Source: Candidatus Rokuibacteriota bacterium
GTDB lineage: Bacteria > Methylomirabilota > Methylomirabilia > Rokubacteriales > CSP1-6
Assembly: GCA_030647435.1 (NCBI GenBank)
Contig: JAUSJX010000119.1
Coordinates: forward strand, 1-32,579
Direction: 5' to 3'
Length of the DNA: 32,579 nt
Position numbers and translations under genes: made by a program. Shown here in pieces: positions 153 to 32,579 of this stretch. The notes under the pieces were generated by a model. The model saw only the letters and a list, made by a program, of their open reading frames with translations, made no database searches and had not been told where the DNA came from. Numbering within the stretch: the stretch's first letter is position 1; the number at the start of each line of letters is the position of its first letter.

Positions 153-212
153 GACGCGTAGGCAACATAAAGCCTGTTCTCCGACACGGCGGCCCTGGGG
201 GCCGTCTCACAG
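153..212 (+). repeat. Dispersed repeat copy 1 (family 1, diverged)
   Basis: The head GCGTAGGCAACATAAAGCC (from 156) matches the heads at 16811, 18984, 21533 and 32230. The body is shortened and carries its own hairpin, GGCCC-TGG-GGGCC at 191-203. It ends in CTCACAG, like the other family-1 ends in TCACAG. To the left, GCATTGATC at 139-147 also occurs left of the copy at 16811, so the element may extend about 20 bp upstream of the core. Confidence 0.7.
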
Positions 213-16267: not shown

Positions 16268-16563
16268 GGCGTTCCTCCTTGCCATTCGACCTACCGGTAG
16301 AACTTTCCGCGCCGACACGGGCACCGGCGGCGTTGGCACGATACGTCAACAGATAATCCGCCGAAGAAAATCTACGGGTAAAATTCCAATAATCCACCAG
16401 GCGCCAGGGCGAGTTGGCGATCACGCGGCCGCTGGCATTCTTGTACCAATTGCCGACGCCCTCGTACGACCACAAGATAGAGCCCAACAAATGGCAGGAA
16501 CAACATCGCTAACAGTGCGGCGATGAATAGAACCTGCACGGGAAGAGCCGCAATGTACTTCAT
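16218..16563 (-). pseudogene. Frameshifted small membrane protein gene
   Basis: ATG 16563 begins MKYIAALPVQVLFIAALLAM followed by LFLPFVGLYLVVVR, a membrane helix. The continuation SYEGVGNWYKNASGRVIANS then PWRLVDYWNFTRRF is in the neighbouring frame, entered near 16470. Joined, they make one plausible protein with an N-terminal anchor and a soluble aromatic-rich tail. The tail frame reads through the ribosome site of the VOC gene and stops at 16218, so the native end may also be lost. Either a real frameshift or a single-base assembly error explains this. Confidence 0.6.
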
Positions 16564-16610
16564 GGCACCTCAGCTCTAGTGTTCTTCTTGTTGCGAGAGG
16601 GCGTGACCTG

Positions 16611-17015
16611 TCAACGGTTTAGGCTTGTCTCTGATGTCTTCGCCCCATGGGAAGCGGTAACGCCCCTCCCCGAGATCAAAACTACCCGTTCGCTATAATC
16701 CGCGTTCACCATAAAGACCTCTGAGGCCCAAAGATCGTGCTCGTCGCCTTGGCCACGATAAGGCGCGCGATTCAAGAGACGCCCTCCCGCATTGATCAGT
16801 TCTGCCCTTAGAGCGTAGATAACATAAAACCCGCTCTCAGTCATGGCCCGTCTCCCCCGAGGGTCCTCCCTCGGGACCTGCCTGGTCACAGCCATCATTA
16901 CATCGATGGCGACCCAGAAGCCGGTCGCCCTCGATAGATGAAAGTTCGAACACTCTTCAAACGCACCAGCGCTCCTTCCAGCAGACACCGCGCTGGGTAT
17001 CCGTCCTCCAACCAT
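16611..17015 (-). CDS. Doubtful ORF spanning a repeat copy
   Basis: This encodes 134 residues with no recognisable domain. The central part, VTRQVPREDPRGRRAMTESG followed by FYVIYALRA, is the minus-strand translation of the dispersed repeat at 16811-16891 and reappears at the end of the ORF at 21522. The C-terminal 60 residues (INAGGRLLNRAPYRGQGDEH and onward) are not low complexity and could be a relic of a real gene. There is no strong ribosome site. It is reported because the repeat is in frame here; it may not be expressed. Confidence 0.25.
   Translation of the reverse strand: MVGGRIPSAVSAGRSAGAFEECSNFHLSRATGFWVAIDVMMAVTRQVPREDPRGRRAMTESGFYVIYALRAELINAGGRLLNRAPYRGQGDEHDLWASEVFMVNADYSERVVLISGRGVTASHGAKTSETSLNR
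16811..16891 (+). repeat. Dispersed repeat copy 2 (family 1)
   Basis: The head GAGCGTAGATAACATAAAA is followed by CTCAGTCATGGCCCG and a perfect 8-bp hairpin, CCCGAGGG-TCCT-CCCTCGGG, at 16856-16875, ending GGTCACAG. It lies downstream of pckG (minus strand) and before the small ORFs to its left. GCATTGATC at 16789-16797 also occurs left of copy 1. Confidence 0.85.
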
Positions 17016-17032
17016 TTACAGAGCAGGTTACA

Positions 17033-17059
17033 AATCGTCGCGCATTCGGGTTGACGATT
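17033..17059 (-). terminator. Inverted repeat downstream of pckG
   Basis: AATCGTC at 17033-17039 and GACGATT at 17053-17059 form a 7-bp stem with a 13-base loop just past the pckG stop. On the minus strand it ends GACGATTTGTAAC, with only a short T-rich tail. It is a weak terminator candidate. Confidence 0.35.
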
Positions 17060-17074
17060 GGAATGCGGCCTGGG

Positions 17075-18913
17075 CTACAGGGCGCGTTCCAGGGCGTCCC
17101 GCTGCGCGTAAAGCTCCTGCGGCATACGTGCCTTGAGCTTCTCGAACAGCTCCGCGTGGTCCTGCACTTCCTTGCGCCAGATCGCGGGGTCGATCTTCGT
17201 CAATTCCTCGAAGCGCTCGCGCGTGAAGCCTTCGAGTCCGCCCCATTCGAGGTCCTCGTAGCGCGGTTGCAGCCCTAGCGGGGTCCTTACGGCGTCCACT
17301 TTGCCCTCGATGCGGTCGATGATCCATTTCAGCACGCGCATGTTATCGCCGAAGCCGGGCCAGATAAACTCGCCCTTCCCGTCCTGCCGGAACCAGTTCA
17401 CGCCGAAGATGCGCGGCGGTTGCTTGAGGCCCTTGCCGATCTTGAGCCAGTGCTTGAAGTAATCTCCGTAGTGGTAACCGCAGAAGGGCAGCATCGCGAA
17501 CGGATCGCGCCGCACCACGCCCACCTGGCCCACGATCGCGGCGGTCGTTTCCGACGCCATCGTCGAGGCCAGGTACACTCCGTGCGTCCAATCGAACGAC
17601 TCCGTCACCAGCGGCACGGCGGTCGCGCGCCGCCCGCCGAACAGGAACACGCTGATTGGCACCCCGTCCGGGTTTTCCCAATCCGGATCCACGGACGGGA
17701 TTTGGCTGCAGCTCATGGTGAAGCGCGCGTTGGGATGAGCCGCCTTGCGCCCGCATGCCGGTGTCCAGGCATTGCCCTGCCAGTCCGTGAGCTCTTTCGG
17801 GGGTTCTTTCGTCAGGCCTTCCCACCACACATCGCCGTCCGGCAGCAGCGCAACGTTGGTGAATATCGTGTCGTGCTTGACCGCTTCCAGGCAGTTGGGA
17901 TTGGTAAACTGCGAGGTTCCAGGCGCGACGCCGAACGCGCCGGCCTCGGGGTTGATCGCGTAGAGCCGGCCGTCCTTGCCGGGCTTGATCCAGGCGATAT
18001 CCTCGCCGATGGTCGTGACCTTCCAGCCTCTATCCTTGAATATCTTGGGCGGCACCAGCATCGCGAGATTGGTCTTGCCGCATGCGCTCGGGAACGCCGC
18101 CGCCACGTAGTACTTCTTCTTCTCGGGCGTCTCGAGGCCGAGGATCAGCATATGCTCGGCGAGCCAGCCCTGCTCCTTCGCCATGATGGAGGCGATCCGC
18201 AGCGCCAGACACTTCTTGCCGAGCAGTGCGTTGCCGCCGTACCCGCTGCCGAAGGACCAGATTTCCTTGGTCTCCGGGTAATGCACGATGTACTTGTGCT
18301 CCTTGTTGCTCGGCCACGAGATGTCCTTCTGCCCCTGCGCGAGCGGCATGCCGACCGAATGCACGCAGGGCACGAAGGCACCGTCGGCGCCCAGCACGTC
18401 GAGCACCTTGCGGCCGATGCGCGTCATGAGCTTCATGTTGACGACGACGTACGGCGAGTCGGTAAGCTCCACCCCGATGTGGGCGATGTGCGAACCGAGC
18501 GGTCCCATGCTGTACGGGATCACGTACATGGTCCGTCCGCGCATGCAACCGTCGAAGAACGTGTTGAGGGTGGCCCGCATCTCGTCCGGGGCCACCCAGT
18601 TATTGTTGGGGCCGGCGTCTTCCCGGTTGCGGCTGCAGACAAAGGTCCGCTCCTCCATGCGCGCGACATCGTCGGGATCGGAGCGGGCGAGGAAGCAGCC
18701 CGGGCGCTTCTGCTCGTTCAACTTGGTCAGGGTGCCGGAGGCAATCATCTCGCTGCACAACCGGTCGTACTCTGCTTGCGACCCGTCGCACCAATGGATG
18801 CGGTCGGGCTTGGTCAGGCTCGCGATTTCCGCCACCCAGGCCTTGAGCTTGGCGTGGCTCACCGGGTAGTCATTGGACTGCACGAGATGCGCGGCCGTAG
18901 CGGGACGATTCAT
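17075..18913 (-). CDS. pckG: Phosphoenolpyruvate carboxykinase (GTP)
   Basis: This encodes 612 residues, full length for the GTP-dependent class. The ribosome site is AAGGAG before ATG 18913. The enzyme decarboxylates and phosphorylates oxaloacetate to PEP in gluconeogenesis. The family signature FPSACGKTN lies at residues 274-282 (P-loop with the reactive cysteine). The substrate-binding region has [20 protein letters not shown], and the mobile-loop and metal region has [20 protein letters not shown] followed by [12 protein letters not shown]. The nucleotide site has [20 protein letters not shown]. No catalytic residue appears lost. It stands alone, bounded by repeats at 16811 and 18984, and its GC is lower than the liv region. 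Confidence 0.97.
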
Positions 18914-18983
18914 AAGGCTCCTTCTCCGATACGTTCTTCTAAAAACAAAGGCACAGCCGCAATATTATCGCCGCTTTGCCGTT

Positions 18984-19062
18984 GAGCGTAGATAACATAA
19001 CCCCCGTTCTCAGTCATGTGGACTTGCCCGAGTGTCTTCCCCCCGGATCTGCCTTGTCACAG
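18984..19062 (+). repeat. Dispersed repeat copy 3 (family 1, hairpin eroded)
   Basis: The head GAGCGTAGATAACATAA continues CCCCCGTTCTCAGTCATG. The central stem is damaged (CCCGAGTG-TCTT-CCCCCCGG) and a small deletion precedes it. The end is TTGTCACAG. It separates pckG from the TPR-methyltransferase gene; both are minus-strand genes. Confidence 0.8.
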
Positions 19063-19095
19063 CGATATGCATGACGAACGAGCGCAACGCCTCGG

Positions 19096-20445
19096 TCAGC
19101 ATGTGCATCCGTTGGGAGTCGCGGGTTTTGTTGCCGTCACCACCAGACCCGCGACAGGGGCGCCGGATTCCATGCGCAACTCTGCGCGCGCGATGTCCGC
19201 CTTCAGACCCGCTTCGACGAGCACGCACTCGACGTACTGGGCCCGGTGGTTGAAACGGCCGTGGGGCTTGATGCAATACGTCGATAAGGCGTCGTCCTCG
19301 GTCGCTTCCTCGACGGTGAAGATGAGCCGTCCGCCGGATCGCAAAGCTCCGGCCGCAGCGGCGGCGACATCCTTGAGCGCCCCGAAATAGACGAGCGTGT
19401 CCGCCGTCACGATCAGATCGAACGCGTCGTAGTGATCCTGAAGGTATGCAATCAATTCGCCTCTGACGAGCTCATCATAGACGTTCTTCTCCCGCGCGTG
19501 TTCCAGCATACCTTCCGACAGATCCACTCCGACCAGCCAGCGGGCATAGGGCGCCACGAGGGGACCACAGAGCCCGGTTCCGCACCCGGCATCCAGGACA
19601 TCGAGGGTTCGTGCCGCGGGGAGACCGGCATCAGCCAGCGCCGCAGCCACGAGCGCCGGCGCCTGATAGTCGAGCTTCGCGAGCTTGGCTTCGAAGCTCG
19701 CCGCAAAGCTGTCGAACGTCTTCTGCACGTACGCGTCGGATGCGCGTGTCGGAACGTCGCGGCCCGACACCGCCGCCAGTGTGTGCCGCGCCACCGGATC
19801 GTCCGGCTCCGACTTCAGCCACTCCTCGCACACGATGACGGCCTTGTCGGGTTGGCCGATGACGCAATACGCCAGCGCCAGCAGGCGACGCGCTTCCGGA
19901 TACTGCGGCTTCAGCGTGAGAGCCTTGCAATAGCACGTCACCGCCTCCTGGGTGCGATGGGTCGCGCTCAACAGAATGGCCAGATTGTGGTACGCGTCAG
20001 GCTGGTCGGGGTTCAGGCGGATCGCCGTGCGATAGGCCTCTTCGGCCTCCGCGGTCATACCTTGCGCCCTCAGCAGGACGCCAATGTTGTTGTGCGCATT
20101 GGCGTGCGTGGGTTGTAGCACCAGCGCCCGCCGGTAGGCGACAACGGCCTCCTGCAGTTTCCCCTTGTCCTGGAAGATGATGCCAAGATTGCTGTGCCAG
20201 TCAGGCTGATCGGGTGCGAGGTCGAGACTCCTGGTAATCAACGCGATCGCTTCCTCGCTGCGACCTTGCTGGTGTGCCAGCACGCCTGAATAGTGCAGCG
20301 CGTCGGGCTGATCGGGCTTCAGTTCCAGCACCTTTCGATACAGTGCCTCCGCCTCGGCCAGCTGGCCGTTCTTCTGGCACCGAATGGCGATCGCCATCGC
20401 CTCGTCGACGGTGACTTCACGCGGCGCGGTGGGCGATTGTTCCAT
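19096..20445 (-). CDS. TPR-repeat protein with C-terminal SAM-dependent methyltransferase domain
   Basis: This encodes 449 residues. Residues about 14-215 are six tetratricopeptide units, visible from the repeating pattern G-x-x-x-E-A-x-x-x-Y-R-x-A/V-L-x-L-x-P-x-x-P-x-A/D, for example LYRKVLELKPDQPDALHYSG and AYRRALVLQPTHANAHNNIG. Residues about 240-440 form a class I methyltransferase with motif I VLDAGCGTGLCGP (283-295), acidic motif II VGVDLS, and motif IV DLIVTADTLVYFG. This TPR-plus-methyltransferase layout is known in proteobacteria, with undefined substrates. It lies directly downstream of hcp on the same strand and may share a transcript. Confidence 0.88.
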   Translation of the reverse strand: MEQSPTAPREVTVDEAMAIAIRCQKNGQLAEAEALYRKVLELKPDQPDALHYSGVLAHQQGRSEEAIALITRSLDLAPDQPDWHSNLGIIFQDKGKLQEAVVAYRRALVLQPTHANAHNNIGVLLRAQGMTAEAEEAYRTAIRLNPDQPDAYHNLAILLSATHRTQEAVTCYCKALTLKPQYPEARRLLALAYCVIGQPDKAVIVCEEWLKSEPDDPVARHTLAAVSGRDVPTRASDAYVQKTFDSFAASFEAKLAKLDYQAPALVAAALADAGLPAARTLDVLDAGCGTGLCGPLVAPYARWLVGVDLSEGMLEHAREKNVYDELVRGELIAYLQDHYDAFDLIVTADTLVYFGALKDVAAAAAGALRSGGRLIFTVEEATEDDALSTYCIKPHGRFNHRAQYVECVLVEAGLKADIARAELRMESGAPVAGLVVTATKPATPNGCTC

Positions 20446-20454
20446 GACGGGTCT

Positions 20455-20634
20455 CTATTCGAAGCCTGGTCGCACGTCTACTCCAACCGATAGTCGAAAT
20501 CGCCGTCGGCCACGGCGAGGCGCACGTCGTCCAACGCCGAACCGATCATCGTCCAGCGTCTCCCCTTTGATCACGCCACCCTTGGCGCCTCTGACCATCA
20601 GGAACATGTCGCCGGGAGAGTGCGCGTCGCTCAA
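20455..20634 (-). pseudogene. N-terminal Hcp-like fragment
   Basis: A frame opening at TTG 20634, one base after the hcp stop, reads SDAHSPGDMFLMVRGAKGGV followed by IKGETLDD. This matches the start of Hcp proteins (MFLKVxGxKGxIKGESxDD). It then runs into arginine-rich nonsense and stops at 20455. The conserved Hcp beta-barrel is absent. The fragment is a truncated second hcp in the same transcription unit, left between hcp and the TPR-methyltransferase gene. Confidence 0.5.
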
Positions 20635-20635
20635 C

Positions 20636-21115
20636 CTAGCCTTCCTTGTTCAGCTTTATGTCGTACTTGAAGTGCACGCCTGCGTCGAGCGATCCATCCG
20701 GCTTCTGCGGCCTGTATTCCAAGTCGACTTTCGCCGGCTTCAGGGTCACGCCTTCGACACCGACCTCTCCGTCGCTGAGCGAAGGTTGAACGCTCGTGAT
20801 GAGGATGTCGTTCATCTTGATGATCAGAAACTCCTGCTGCCCCTTGCCCGCCTTTCGGGCGGTAATCGTGGCGTCCTTGATGTGCTTGCCCGTGGCGCAG
20901 GCTGCCATCAGAAGAGGCGATGCCTTGTCGATGTGGTGAGCAAGATGGAAATCCGAAAAGCTCGCTTTGCCGGATCCTCCTCCACCCCCCTGCCCCGTGC
21001 CCCCGGTTTGCGACACGCCCCATGACCATGAGAGCACCTCGACCTCGTCCTTGTGCTTGGCGTCGAGCGATTCGCCCTTGATAGTTCCGATCTTCGCGAA
21101 GATGTCTGGCGCCAT
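20636..21115 (-). CDS. hcp: Hcp-family type VI secretion tube/effector protein
   Basis: This encodes 159 residues from ATG 21115, with GAGGAG 7 bp upstream. The protein begins APDIFAKIGTIKGESLDAKH, continues DEVEVLSWSWGVSQTG and ends with VHFKYDIKLNKEG, the recognisable Hcp1 (PF05638) pattern. Hcp hexamers form the inner tube of type VI secretion systems and chaperone small effectors. A Gly-rich loop (GGTGQGGGGGSGK) is longer than usual. No tss structural genes are in the window, so this is an orphan Hcp here. An AT-rich segment upstream may be its promoter. Confidence 0.9.
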   Translation of the reverse strand: MAPDIFAKIGTIKGESLDAKHKDEVEVLSWSWGVSQTGGTGQGGGGGSGKASFSDFHLAHHIDKASPLLMAACATGKHIKDATITARKAGKGQQEFLIIKMNDILITSVQPSLSDGEVGVEGVTLKPAKVDLEYRPQKPDGSLDAGVHFKYDIKLNKEG

Positions 21116-21143
21116 TACTACGCTCCTCTTCCCACCCGGTTGG

Positions 21144-21180
21144 TGAAATAAATAAAATATAATAAAATATTCAATATGCC
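21144..21180 (-). promoter_or_regulatory. AT-rich promoter-like segment upstream of hcp
   Basis: About 35 bp of nearly pure A+T stands out from the GC-rich surroundings. On the minus strand TTGAAT is followed after 17 bp by TTATTT, with several TATATT/TATTTT alternatives. It begins about 30 bp upstream of the hcp start. AT-rich tracts like this also attract H-NS-type silencers. Confidence 0.4.
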
Positions 21181-21521
21181 CGTCGTCGGCGTTCTGTGCC
21201 GATGCAACGCTGCAGTGATGCAGTATCGGTGCTACGTTCGCTCGGTTGTGCTCGATTCGGGTTACCGGCGCGCGTTCGGCAGCCGGATCGGCGCTTCCCA
21301 AGCGCTCCGCAACGGGCGTTGCGGCAAATCATGCAGTCGCCGGGCGCAGCAAGTCAAGCGCGGAGCGCGCTCGCCCCTGAGCGCGGCTTTGCTTGCCTGA
21401 ACGCGACAAACTCGGGCAGCATTGGTCATAACGCCGCTTGCGCACGCCCACGACCCCCCAACAGGAAGCCAGATCGCTCGCCAACCGACCCAGCGCATGC
21501 TCGATTCGCGCCCCAGGACCA
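21181..21521. other. Non-coding stretch between hcp promoter region and a small membrane gene
   Basis: No credible gene is seen on either strand; the short ORFs here lack ribosome sites and domain-like sequence. The stretch contains a GC-rich imperfect dyad around 21305-21325 (CGCAACGGGCGTTGCGG). Nothing else is recognised. Confidence 0.4.
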
Positions 21522-21824
21522 TCAAGCGCGTGGAGCGTAGATAACATAAAGCCCGTTCTCAGTCATGGCCCGTCTTGCCCGAGGGTCTTCCCTCGGAACC
21601 CGCCGTGTCACAGGAGGGCTCTTCGCGATCTGCTTGTCGATCCGCTGAACGGCCTCGACGAGCTCGAGCGTGGCCCCGCCGACATTGACTTTGCTGACCC
21701 GTGGGGGGAGGGAGATGATGTCGGTGCGGAGAGCGAACACCAGGAGGATCATGGTGCAGGGCCAAATGAGGCCTTTGGCCAGACCGATGAATATGCCAAG
21801 ACGGTCATTCGCTCCATCAGCCAT
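21522..21824 (-). CDS. Small single-helix membrane protein whose C-terminus is encoded by a repeat
   Basis: This encodes 100 residues from ATG 21824. One transmembrane helix (GIFIGLAKGLIWPCTMILLV) is followed by a short soluble part, VNVGGATLELVEAVQRIDKQ. From VTRRVPREDPRARRAMTENG to the stop the protein is the minus-strand translation of the repeat at 21533-21613. The native C-terminus was therefore probably replaced when the repeat arrived, or the repeat provides the stop. It lies between the lipase-like gene and hcp on the same strand. Function is unknown. Confidence 0.5.
   Translation of the reverse strand: MADGANDRLGIFIGLAKGLIWPCTMILLVFALRTDIISLPPRVSKVNVGGATLELVEAVQRIDKQIAKSPPVTRRVPREDPRARRAMTENGLYVIYAPRA
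21533..21613 (+). repeat. Dispersed repeat copy 4 (family 1, best preserved)
   Basis: The head GAGCGTAGATAACATAAAG is followed by CCCGTTCTCAGTCATGGCCCG and a perfect hairpin CCGAGGG-TCTT-CCCTCGG at 21579-21596, ending GTGTCACAG. It overlaps the 3' end of the small membrane gene. Confidence 0.85.
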
Positions 21825-22069
21825 AACGTGTCCCTCTTCTTCCTACTTCCACGCGATCGCCTCCCAGGGGCTCCGCCAGCCGCACCTCCGTCTAGCGGGC
21901 TGCTCTCGGACTGCGTTGACCATTCCGCGTATCAGCGGGTGTCGTTGGAGAGGCGGGCATGGGGCCGCAGACGATCGACGTGGGCGCCTTTGAGTTTCGT
22001 CCATCTCCCGCTGCTGCGAAGGACGAGTAGTCGTCGTCGGGAGTGGCGATGCGCGATGGCCCCAGAAAG

Positions 22070-29200: not shown

Positions 29201-30145
29201 TCAGAAGACGATCACCAGCCGCCCTCGGATCCCGCCCGCGTCCAGCTTGCGCTGCGCGTCCGCCGCCCGCTCGGGCGGAAAGGTCTCCGCCACCCGCAGG
29301 GTGAGCTTGCCTTCGGCGACCAGATGACCCAGCCGATCGAGCGCTTCATGGTTGTGCAGGTACGAGGTCACCCGCACCGGCTCGATCGTGATGCCTCGTT
29401 CAGAGGGGCCGGCGAAGCCGCGCACCGTGGCCAGCTTGCCGCCATCCCGGATGGCGGGCAGGACCGCCGCGTCGAGCACGGCCGCGTCGATCAGCCCATC
29501 AACGCCCCCGGGAGCCGCGTCGTGGAGGCCGCGGACCGCCGCCTCGCCGCGGGGCACCAGCGTCTCCGCGCCGAATCGCCTCACCAGCGCTTCGTCCTGC
29601 GGCCCCGCCACGGCGATCACGCGCAGCCCGTCGCTGACGCCGAGCTCAACCGCATAACCACCGACCGCGCCAGCCGCGCCGGTGACGCCCAGGGTCTGCC
29701 CCGGCTGGAGCGCGAGCCGGTCCAGCGCGAGGCGCACCGTCAGCCCGTTCATCGGCAGGGTGGCGGCGGCCTCCAGGCTGGCTCCCTCGGGCACGCGGGC
29801 GACAGACGCGACCGGAACGACCACCAACTCCGCCTGGGCGCCGCCGCCCGGACGGCGCGGATTGACGATCGCCATCACGCGGTCACCGGTGTGCCAGTCC
29901 GCGCCCTCGCCGACGGCGTCCACCACCCCGGCCAGCTCCATGCCGGGGATGTAGGGCGGCCGCACACCCATCGCTGTCAGTTGGGCGGTTGTCTGCCGTC
30001 CGGCACGGAAACCGATGTCGGTCGGGTTGACCGTCGCCGCCGCCACGCGAATGCGCACCTCGCCGGGGCCGGGCTGCGGCTCAGGCAATTCCGCCACTTC
30101 CAGCACCTCGGGTCCACCGAATCGGGAAAAGGTCACCGCTCGCAT
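29201..30145 (-). CDS. Zinc-independent MDR oxidoreductase (quinone oxidoreductase-like)
   Basis: This encodes 314 residues from ATG 30145, with GAGAGG 6 bp upstream. It is a medium-chain dehydrogenase/reductase: RAVTFSRFGGPEVLEVAELP and PGPGEVRIRVAAATVNPTDI at the N-terminus, PPYIPGMELAGVVDAVGEGA, and the NADP-binding LGVTGAAGAVGGYAVEL. Structural and catalytic zinc cysteines are absent, as in quinone oxidoreductase (Qor) proteins. The C-terminus LDAGGIRGRLVIVF is typical. It probably reduces an enone or quinone with NADPH, substrate unknown. The 3' end is about 60 bp from the integrase remnant. Confidence 0.9.
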   Translation of the reverse strand: MRAVTFSRFGGPEVLEVAELPEPQPGPGEVRIRVAAATVNPTDIGFRAGRQTTAQLTAMGVRPPYIPGMELAGVVDAVGEGADWHTGDRVMAIVNPRRPGGGAQAELVVVPVASVARVPEGASLEAAATLPMNGLTVRLALDRLALQPGQTLGVTGAAGAVGGYAVELGVSDGLRVIAVAGPQDEALVRRFGAETLVPRGEAAVRGLHDAAPGGVDGLIDAAVLDAAVLPAIRDGGKLATVRGFAGPSERGITIEPVRVTSYLHNHEALDRLGHLVAEGKLTLRVAETFPPERAADAQRKLDAGGIRGRLVIVF

Positions 30146-30263
30146 GTTTGCCTCTCTTTGGCAGCCGCCGTGGGGCGGGTGCGTGTGCGTTCGCACTGCT
30201 GACCGGGCTCATGGACTCAGAGGCTGTGAATGAATCGGCGCATCGCGCGGCGCGAGGGGATTG

Positions 30264-30365
30264 TCAACATGAACGCCCTCCAGCGGGGGTCGGTGCGTCC
30301 GTGGCCCCCGTCACCGTGCCCTAACCTCCCAGACTTAGCCGCCGCCCGCCCCAGGAGCCGTAGGC
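30264..30365 (+). repeat. Dispersed repeat copy 6 (family 2)
   Basis: CAACATGAACGCCCTCCAGC begins about 100 bp that are nearly identical to the copy at 30900-31011. For about the first 80 bases no difference is seen. The body contains CGGGGG...CCCCCG, an inverted pair. It lies just downstream of the NIPSNAP gene on the minus strand. Confidence 0.9.
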
Positions 30366-30375
30366 ACGGCGTCCT

Positions 30376-30899: not shown

Positions 30900-31011
30900 G
30901 AGCGTAAGCAACATGAACGCCCTCCAGCGGGGGTCGGTGCGTCCGTGGCCCCCGTCACCGTGCCCTAACCTCCCAGACTTAGCCGCCGGCCGCCCGAGGA
31001 GCCCGATGGCA
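30900..31011 (+). repeat. Dispersed repeat copy 7 (family 2, full head)
   Basis: GAGCGTAAGCAACATGAACG begins with the same GAGCGTA-R-R/Y-AACAT head as family 1 but continues with the family-2 body. It ends GCCCGATGGCA. It separates the dipeptidase gene (to the right) from the NIPSNAP gene (to the left). Confidence 0.9.
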
Positions 31012-31017
31012 CACCTC

Positions 31018-32130
31018 CTACCCGGCGGAGGCGGCGAAGATCCTCAGATAGTTACCGCCGACGACCTTCGCGGTGTCGGCGGGCGTGAAGCCCCCGCGCA
31101 GCATCGCGTCGACGAGCTGCGTGAAGTGGTCGTACTGGGGAAAGAGCCCGGGGCCCGACGACGTGTCGGTGCCGATGCTGACGTGATCGACGCCCACGAC
31201 TTCAGCCATCTCCTTGAGGCCGTCCACATAACGCTCGAGGCTCGGAAAGAAGTGCCAGATGCCGATGGAGCCGCCCGTCTCCGCCAGCGCGCGGGCGTGG
31301 TCCGGCGTGATCTGGCGCTCCGTGAGCGGCGTGGGACCCTGCGCCTTCGAGCCCCGCAGTGCGGTGTGCGAGAGCAGGAGCGGCTTCGTCGATACCTTCA
31401 CGGCCTGCTTCACCGTGTCCGCGGTCGCGTGCGCGACGTCGATCACGACCCCTAGCCGGTGGCACGCGCGGATGACGTCCGCGCCGAACGGCGTCAGCCC
31501 GTTGTGCGTGACGGCGCCAGTCTGGAAGTCGCCGATGTCGTTCGGCGTGTAGTGCACGAGCTGCATCGTGCGCACGCCGCGACGGTACGAGTCTTCCAGA
31601 CGCTCCAGCTTCCACTCGAGGAAATCGAGGCCCTCGATGTCGACGATGATCGCGGGCTGACCCGCCGCGTGCGCCGCTTTCAGATCGGCAAGGGTCAGCG
31701 CCCGGCGGACGCCGTGCTTGGCCACCAGCTCGTCGATCCACGCGAGCCGCTCCAGATGATAGGTGTAAAGGAATCCCGGCTCGGGCGTGCGCTGCGCGAC
31801 CAGCACGTTCTGCGCGTTGCGGCCGAGGATAGGGCCGTCGGGGACGTCGGCGAGGCAGAGAATGGCGATGCGGCCGGCGCGCATGCTGCGCGCGATCTCG
31901 TCGCTGGGTCGCGCAGTGCGGGACGTGACGCCGTTCGGACCCGCGTGAGTGTGGACGTCGATCGAGATGTTGTCGCGGAGCAGGGCGGCGGCGGCGGTGA
32001 GCGGCGCCGCCGACGCCCCCACCGCATCCGCGCGCGTTCCGGCACAGCCAGCGAATACCGCGCCGACCGAGCTCAGCATCGCGCTCCACATCCAGTCGCG
32101 GCGGGTCAGCGCGTGACCGCAGCAATGCAT
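31018..32130 (-). CDS. Renal-dipeptidase-like (M19) metallohydrolase, lipoprotein or Tat-type signal
   Basis: About 370 residues from the second of two adjacent ATGs (32130), 5 bp after GAGGAA. The in-frame extension to 32253 begins inside a repeat and is rejected. The N-terminus has TRRDWMWSAMLSSVGAVFAG then C, combining a twin-arginine and a lipobox-like pattern. M19 metal-site elements are readable: ISIDVHTHAGPNG (HxH in place of the more common HxD), IIVDIEGLDFLE (bridging Glu), VIDVAHATADT, LLLSHTALRG and VSIGTDTSSGPG. The family cleaves dipeptides or acyl-amino acids. The gene overlaps the stop of a truncated upstream gene (ATGA). Confidence 0.88.
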   Translation of the reverse strand: MHCCGHALTRRDWMWSAMLSSVGAVFAGCAGTRADAVGASAAPLTAAAALLRDNISIDVHTHAGPNGVTSRTARPSDEIARSMRAGRIAILCLADVPDGPILGRNAQNVLVAQRTPEPGFLYTYHLERLAWIDELVAKHGVRRALTLADLKAAHAAGQPAIIVDIEGLDFLEWKLERLEDSYRRGVRTMQLVHYTPNDIGDFQTGAVTHNGLTPFGADVIRACHRLGVVIDVAHATADTVKQAVKVSTKPLLLSHTALRGSKAQGPTPLTERQITPDHARALAETGGSIGIWHFFPSLERYVDGLKEMAEVVGVDHVSIGTDTSSGPGLFPQYDHFTQLVDAMLRGGFTPADTAKVVGGNYLRIFAASAG

Positions 32131-32228
32131 CATTTCCTCACCCCCATCCCGCGGAACTTCATGTGCAGCTCGGTCATCGGCGTGAAGCCGACCACGCGCG
32201 CGGTGTGCGCGTAGATCTTCGTCGCCAA
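32130..32228 (-). pseudogene. 3' tail of a gene cut off by a repeat
   Basis: The frame reads KIYAHTARVVGFTPMTELHM then KFRGMGVRK and stops at TGA 32132-32130, overlapping the dipeptidase start (ATGATG/TGA). This coupling shows it was once the preceding gene of an operon. Immediately upstream, at 32230, the dispersed repeat begins and no coding frame continues. The family is not recognised. Confidence 0.55.
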
Positions 32229-32229
32229 C

Positions 32230-32307
32230 GAGCGTAGATAACATAAAACGCATTGTCAGTCATGGCCCGCCGCGCCCGAGGGGCTTCCCTCGGGTCTGCC
32301 GTGGCAG
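32230..32307 (+). repeat. Dispersed repeat copy 8 (family 1)
   Basis: The head GAGCGTAGATAACATAAAAC continues GTCAGTCATGGCCCG and a perfect 8-bp hairpin, CCCGAGGG-GCTT-CCCTCGGG. Its end, GTGGCAG, runs directly into the head of a family-2 copy. Confidence 0.85.
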
Positions 32308-32410
32308 CAACATGAACGCCCTCCGGCGGTGGTCGCCCCGCCCGTGGCCCCCATCACCGTGACCGAGCCTCCCAGACTCAGCCCCCGCCCGCCCCAGGAG
32401 CCCGATGGCA
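32305..32410 (+). repeat. Dispersed repeat copy 9 (family 2), in tandem with copy 8
   Basis: CAGCAACATGAACGCCCTCC starts at the last bases of copy 8. The body differs by scattered substitutions from the copies at 30264 and 30900 but ends with the same GCCCGATGGCA. It stands downstream of the thioesterase gene on the minus strand. Confidence 0.85.
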
Positions 32411-32446: not shown

Positions 32447-32579
32447 TCAGCCCAGCGCCCGCTCCTCGTCGACGCACAGCAGCCGCACCCGGCCTTGCGC
32501 GACCAACTGCTCCTTCTCGTCGCGGATCCACGCCTCCCACACCTGGCTCGTGCGACCGCGGGTGACCGGGCGCGCGTTG
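32447..32579 (-). CDS. PaaI/hotdog-fold thioesterase, C-terminal part (cut by window edge)
   Basis: The last 44 residues of a minus-strand gene are present: ARPVTRGRTSQVWEAWIRDE then KEQLVAQGRVRLLCVDEERA. The pattern GRTxxVWExxIRDExxxLVAxGRVxLL is the final pair of strands of PaaI-like hotdog thioesterases, which hydrolyse acyl-CoA thioesters. The catalytic region lies outside the window. Confidence 0.75.
   Translation of the reverse strand, partial: NARPVTRGRTSQVWEAWIRDEKEQLVAQGRVRLLCVDEERALG

Follow-up and report, generated by a model that had tools for sequence, protein, structure and literature searches.

The window analysed here, 32,579 nucleotides long, takes in contig C119 from end to end; the contig belongs to a metagenome-assembled genome (MAG; 5.79 Mb in 176 contigs, 98.5% complete) of a soil bacterium whose relatives, going by the titles of orthologues, are Candidatus Rokubacteria. 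Towards its right end lies an intact membrane dipeptidase gene (stop codon at 31018–31020), preceded on the same strand by the 3' tail of a gene for a family-5 ABC substrate-binding protein (SBP), which is cut off at a pair of short repeats (Table 1). As the earlier note had described, these repeats stand head-to-tail; both lie on the plus strand, a family-1 copy (32230–32307) followed by a family-2 copy (32308–32410), with the contact at 32307/32308. The CAG that the two copies were thought to share was not confirmed: family 1 ends here in GTGGCAG, 2 bp shorter than the usual GGCACAG, and family 2 begins with CAACATG, its GTAG start missing. Contig C64 (L028 3085–3199) has a second junction of this sort, at which an SDR gene is truncated and the head-to-tail partners are a family-3-type ori end and a family-1 copy.

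Table 1 Features of the window discussed in the text.
Feature	Position	Strand	Basis or remark
Short element of this type, 59 bp, with another hairpin	154..212	+	
Family-1 mini-element between glyoxalase-like gene and PEPCK	16811..16891	+	
Family-1 mini-element upstream of PEPCK	18984..19062	+	
Family-1 mini-element	21533..21613	+	
Family-2 copy	30265..30366	+	98% identical over 95 bp to the copy at 30908
Family-2 mini-element across the dipeptidase from the junction, with GAGCGTAAGCAACATG at its left and GATGGCACA at its right end	30908..31013	+	
Membrane dipeptidase (Peptidase_M19), 371 aa, intact	31018..32133	-	PF01244, E 3e-48; 86% identical orthologue in G022/AR7
Family-5 ABC substrate-binding protein (SBP) gene, 3' tail of about 30 codons and stop	32130..32222	-	Cut off at repeat; tblastn matches upstream of orthologous dipeptidase
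GAGC tetranucleotide, left (oriIS-side) end of family-1 element	32230..32233	+	Putative target; GVGC here in 81/102 copies
Family-1 mini-element with a CCCGAGGG/CCCTCGGG hairpin inside; right end (GTGGCAG) degenerate	32234..32307	+	Covariance model R1, 81.7 bits; fold prediction
Family-2 mini-element, no GAGCGTAGG at its start, where copies usually have it; degenerate right end (GATGGCAAAG)	32308..32410	+	nhmmer E about 1e-22
Thioesterase-like gene, 3' part, right of the junction	32447..32579	-	Named by eye, without profile search; runs on into contig C2 (141-bp overlap)

The gene tail is coding. Its minus-strand frame (32222–32130) translates to a peptide ending in LATKIYAHTARVVGFTPMTELHMKFRGMGVRK and a stop codon, and tblastn matched it to the SBP C-terminus of the Rokubacteria AR7, AR29 and AR40 (69–76% identity, E 1e-11 to 1e-14; L110, L111, L112), where the protein ends in KVYAHLARVVGFTPLTELHMDFRGVAIRK or close to it. 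In all three genomes a full-length SBP gene, the homologue that the earlier note had proposed to look for, lies immediately upstream of a dipeptidase gene 83–88% identical to that in the window, and the AR7 (G022) protein matches SBP_bac_5 (PF00496) at 9e-79. In line with the suggested coupling to the dipeptidase, the TGA of the tail overlaps the dipeptidase ATG (ATGA), although this overlap is peculiar to the present genome and the three relatives have a short gap between the two genes.

DNA similarity to the SBP gene of the relatives stops at window position 32219–32220, about 10 bp short of the GAGC at 32230. Because the tail frame, read upstream, meets a TGA at 32258–32256, inside the repeat, no intact 5' part continues in it. 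Nor was that part, some 460 residues, found beside another repeat copy, where the earlier note had proposed to look for it: at orthologue level it is absent from the 5.79-Mb assembly, in which the other family-5 SBP matches are paralogues with at most 38% identity, and a comparison of 8.2 kb of the AR7 region with the genome gave scattered weak DNA matches only, besides the SBP-tail locus. In this genome, then, the SBP gene is a truncated one, and the assembly lacks its 5' part. A coding tail, a full-length homologue in relatives and an absent 5' part together make the edge of the repeat a breakpoint and not an intergenic decoration, as the earlier note had held. Neither of the outcomes that the note had named as refuting this, a non-coding tail or an upstream part intact across the repeat, was found.

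The genes around the breakpoint are unevenly distributed. Among the congeners, no close dipeptidase was found at E 1e-60 in G001–G003, and G004 has only one at 38% identity; the dipeptidase and its quinone oxidoreductase neighbour are both patchy in distribution. The quinone oxidoreductase gene (29201–30191) is 90% identical to that of G012, a relative of a different genus, with homology that begins at the stop codon and breaks off 46 bp before the start codon, so that the patch covers one gene. A base-exact breakpoint at the copy at 30265 was considered and rejected, as 74 bp separate the copy from the end of this homology at 30191.

The junction lies only 170 bp from the end of a contig in a MAG rich in repeats, and it might therefore be an artefact of assembly. 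However, the edge between the SBP tail and family 1 falls within the contig, the family-1 copy, at 78 bp, does not reach the length of the 141-bp contig overlap, and the same pattern recurs at six other copies; we regard an artefact as very unlikely. The assembly goes on in contig C2, the end of which is identical to the last 141 bp of the window. No orthologue of the thioesterase-like gene was found in 36 relatives, which leaves the right flank of the junction without placement.

The repeats have the form of very small mobile elements. What the earlier note took for two repeat families, 1 (about 80 bp) and 2 (about 105 bp), are lineages of one element type, with a common left end, (GVGC)GTAG-RY-AACATNA, and a common right end, CACAG. 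Chimaeras join a family-1 start to a family-2 end (L021 1785–1846) and a family-2 end to the right half of family 1 (L163 2087–2138). The covariance model detected 78 copies of family 1 in this genome and 32, 11, 7 and 2 in four congeners (52), compared with a single copy in 36 other genomes searched, so the family is almost confined to one genus. The left tetranucleotide is GVGC in 81 of 102 aligned matches (63 GAGC, 11 GGGC and 7 GCGC), preceded by bases that are near random, and the right end is CACAG in 65 of the 102. The hairpin of family 1 shows almost no compensatory change in the covariation analysis, and fold prediction gave no stable hairpin for family 2. Copies can be dense: contig C61 (L018) has five of family 2 in 6.6 kb, in one orientation, on a low-coding contig that also holds a fragment of an IS91 transposase and an apparent transposase gene of the IS110 type.

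No consistent target duplication was found in 64 copies with both ends (flank matches of 0–4 nt, 1 nt in 44 of them), and terminal inverted repeats are absent, the ends not being complementary by inspection; with neither feature present, a miniature element bearing terminal inverted repeats (MITE) was rejected. A search for an empty site at the DNA level, comparing congeners with window positions 16300–22000, returned none, the relatives being too divergent. This stretch includes a GTP-type PEPCK gene (17075–18913) between two family-1 copies, with about 65% DNA identity to the congeners. The element boundaries and the role of GVGC as target are thus putative; the tetranucleotide may instead belong to the element, as its opening bases.

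Longer copies link the repeats to IS91-family transposases. Several copies with a family-1 start run past CACAG into a long shared sequence that carries, on the opposite strand, the C-terminus of such a transposase; at L027 and L081 the order is transposase stop codon, about 160 bp, CACAG, family 1 and GAGC (PF04986, E 1.7e-8). In L078 an IS91 remnant has a family-2-like right end (CAGGAGCCGCTGCCACAG) next to it, and in L077 family-3-like 3' sequence neighbours a transposase that has both a Zn_Tnp_IS91 and a Y2_Tnp domain. Y2_Tnp matches occur at eight places in the genome, as against none in 14 control genomes. The transposase copy on contig C155 has both the zinc-binding and the Y2 domain, and comparison with L079 allows the 5' (ter) end of its element to be placed near GTATCCATCTCTGGGCAT, an end unlike CACAG. 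Because longer copies with the same end lead into the 3' regions of IS91 transposases, the repeats are, as far as sequence comparison can tell, the oriIS-side end of IS91-family elements, mostly present alone. Directly beyond the long family-1/IS91 copy of L027 (contig C139) lie tyrosine-recombinase-like genes.

The SBP gene is not the only gene broken at a copy, and six further copies edge truncated genes. Five stop at the GVGC edge, namely a CoA-transferase family III gene (profile positions from 120/366), a PDZ protein gene, an SDR gene (50/195), an ABC transporter gene (103/274) and a PIN gene (from 70/120), and a C-terminal part of GroEL starts at the other, non-GVGC edge. Reading by eye the translation of 450 bp of flank past each element, we saw none of the six missing halves. 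The GroEL fragment (contig C151; L035 2155–2740) directly follows a mini-element of about 41 bp ending in CTTGGCAG, beside an apparent ilvD 3' end; a full-length GroEL gene is present on contig C29. GroEL fragments on contigs C90 and C163, which share 308 bp at 98%, were rejected as the missing half of the fragment on C151.

With gene calls from a simple codon model, mini-elements lie inside called open reading frames in 2 of 88 cases. Neighbouring copies are co-oriented 33:14 (p 0.008, the copies in one array not being independent), and a gene 3' end lies on the CACAG side of 49 of 72 copies, a modest bias to which the window's own array contributes. That bias, together with window genes that on both sides run one way with a copy after each 3' end, and a genome that encodes an integron integrase (TIGR02249, 472 bits), would fit repeats that are integron attC sites and a dipeptidase that is a gene cassette. 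By inspection, however, the ends carry no RYYYAAC/GTTRRRY pair, the nearest sequences (GTTATCT in family 1, GTTGCCT in family 2) being without a partner. No family-1 or family-2 copy was detected in the 19 kb around the complete integrase (L047; G000 C156:12544–13488), copies occur in both orientations and are spread over many contigs, and the repeats are linked to IS91 transposase 3' ends. The boxes, the location and the IS91 link mostly refute an attC origin, which we consider extremely improbable. Several truncated relatives of the integrase also occur, with fragments on contigs C79, C64 and C134.

We favour, with a probability of about 0.6, a reading in which the repeats are miniature, non-autonomous oriIS ends of IS91 elements, and in which the cut in the SBP gene is the work of a run-on product abutting an older family-1 ori end. 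The mini-elements would start after GVGC with GTAG-RY-AACATNA, often contain a hairpin and end in CACAG, and IS91-type transposases would probably mobilize them in trans. Rolling-circle copying would start at the GTAG end and stop at CACAG-like ends, at times running into adjacent DNA, a step that we propose by analogy with IS801 and Helraiser. On the simplest reading, the family-2 copy at 30908, the dipeptidase gene and the SBP tail would together be a single run-on product; its far end, within the SBP gene, would have come to lie against the ori end of the older family-1 element, which would cut the gene at the repeat. Run-on capture would account for the edge, for the common orientation and for a dipeptidase that is patchily distributed. 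Against it stand the ter end of the transposase-bearing element, which is unlike CACAG, and the hairpins, unstable in family 2 and almost without compensatory change in family 1. The contact between the two families is also irregular: family 1 has lost two bases, and family 2 is without its GTAG start, for which an extra deletion or short-homology event would be needed.

The main rival to run-on transposition is deletion between copies: a family-1 mini-element would have inserted into a complete SBP gene, homologous recombination between copies would have removed the 5' part, and the junction would be the scar. Dozens of similar copies offer a substrate for such recombination, chimaeric copies exist, and the upstream operon is absent from the genome together with the SBP 5' part. 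Yet no complete operon was seen in the genus in the dipeptidase search (G001–G004), and homology tracts of 40–100 bp are short for RecA-dependent recombination. Most IS801 fragments in genomes have nonetheless been ascribed to reorganization and not to one-ended transposition (PMC3189936), and we treat deletion as a possible if rather unlikely origin of the junction. Run-on transposition, if correct, admits a bolder extension, in which the ori end carries its own terminator (hairpin and CACAG) and so forms a self-copying unit of about 80 bp, and successive run-ons at the same GVGC build co-oriented one-gene arrays without an integron, by a route specific to this genus of Rokubacteria; this we offer as speculative and consider doubtful.

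One-ended transposition of IS91-family elements is often invoked to explain gene capture, though mainly on circumstantial evidence. Where such copying starts and stops could be studied in this genus, whose genomes hold minimal ori-end copies by the tens, several of them at broken genes. The genus also serves as a warning that gene truncations in these MAGs may be genuine.

Several known systems invite comparison. The gene–repeat–gene layout of the window resembles an integron cassette array, but the repeat lacks attC boxes and is unlinked to the integrase found. Non-autonomous Helitrons of eukaryotes have a conserved start and a 3' hairpin near a fixed end, as here; in Helraiser the hairpin is the terminator and its bypass leads to capture (PMC4778049), as we infer for the run-on products, although our host is bacterial and the termini are different. 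ISCR elements likewise have an IS91-like transposase, with a single tyrosine in a RYLLRPP motif (read by eye), and carry adjacent genes; unlike them, the elements described here have no resistance context and are dominated by mini forms. Closest in kind is IS801 of Pseudomonas syringae, an IS91-family element with right-end minis of 229–679 nt that carries fragments of an adjacent gene, each ending at a target-like tetranucleotide (PMC3189936). In both cases the pieces keep the 3' (ori) end and lack inverted repeats; on our reading, an end at a target-like tetranucleotide and the carriage of adjacent-gene fragments would be shared as well. Whereas IS801 has few minis, of the sizes just given, and uses GAAC, GGAC, CAAG or CGAC, the elements reported here measure about 40–105 bp, reach 78 copies in family 1 alone, mostly stop at a fixed CACAG, frequently contain a hairpin and are associated with GVGC. 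Miniature IS91-family elements and the capture of adjacent genes are thus already known from IS801; what is new here is the size (about 40–105 bp), the copy number and the association with breakpoints.
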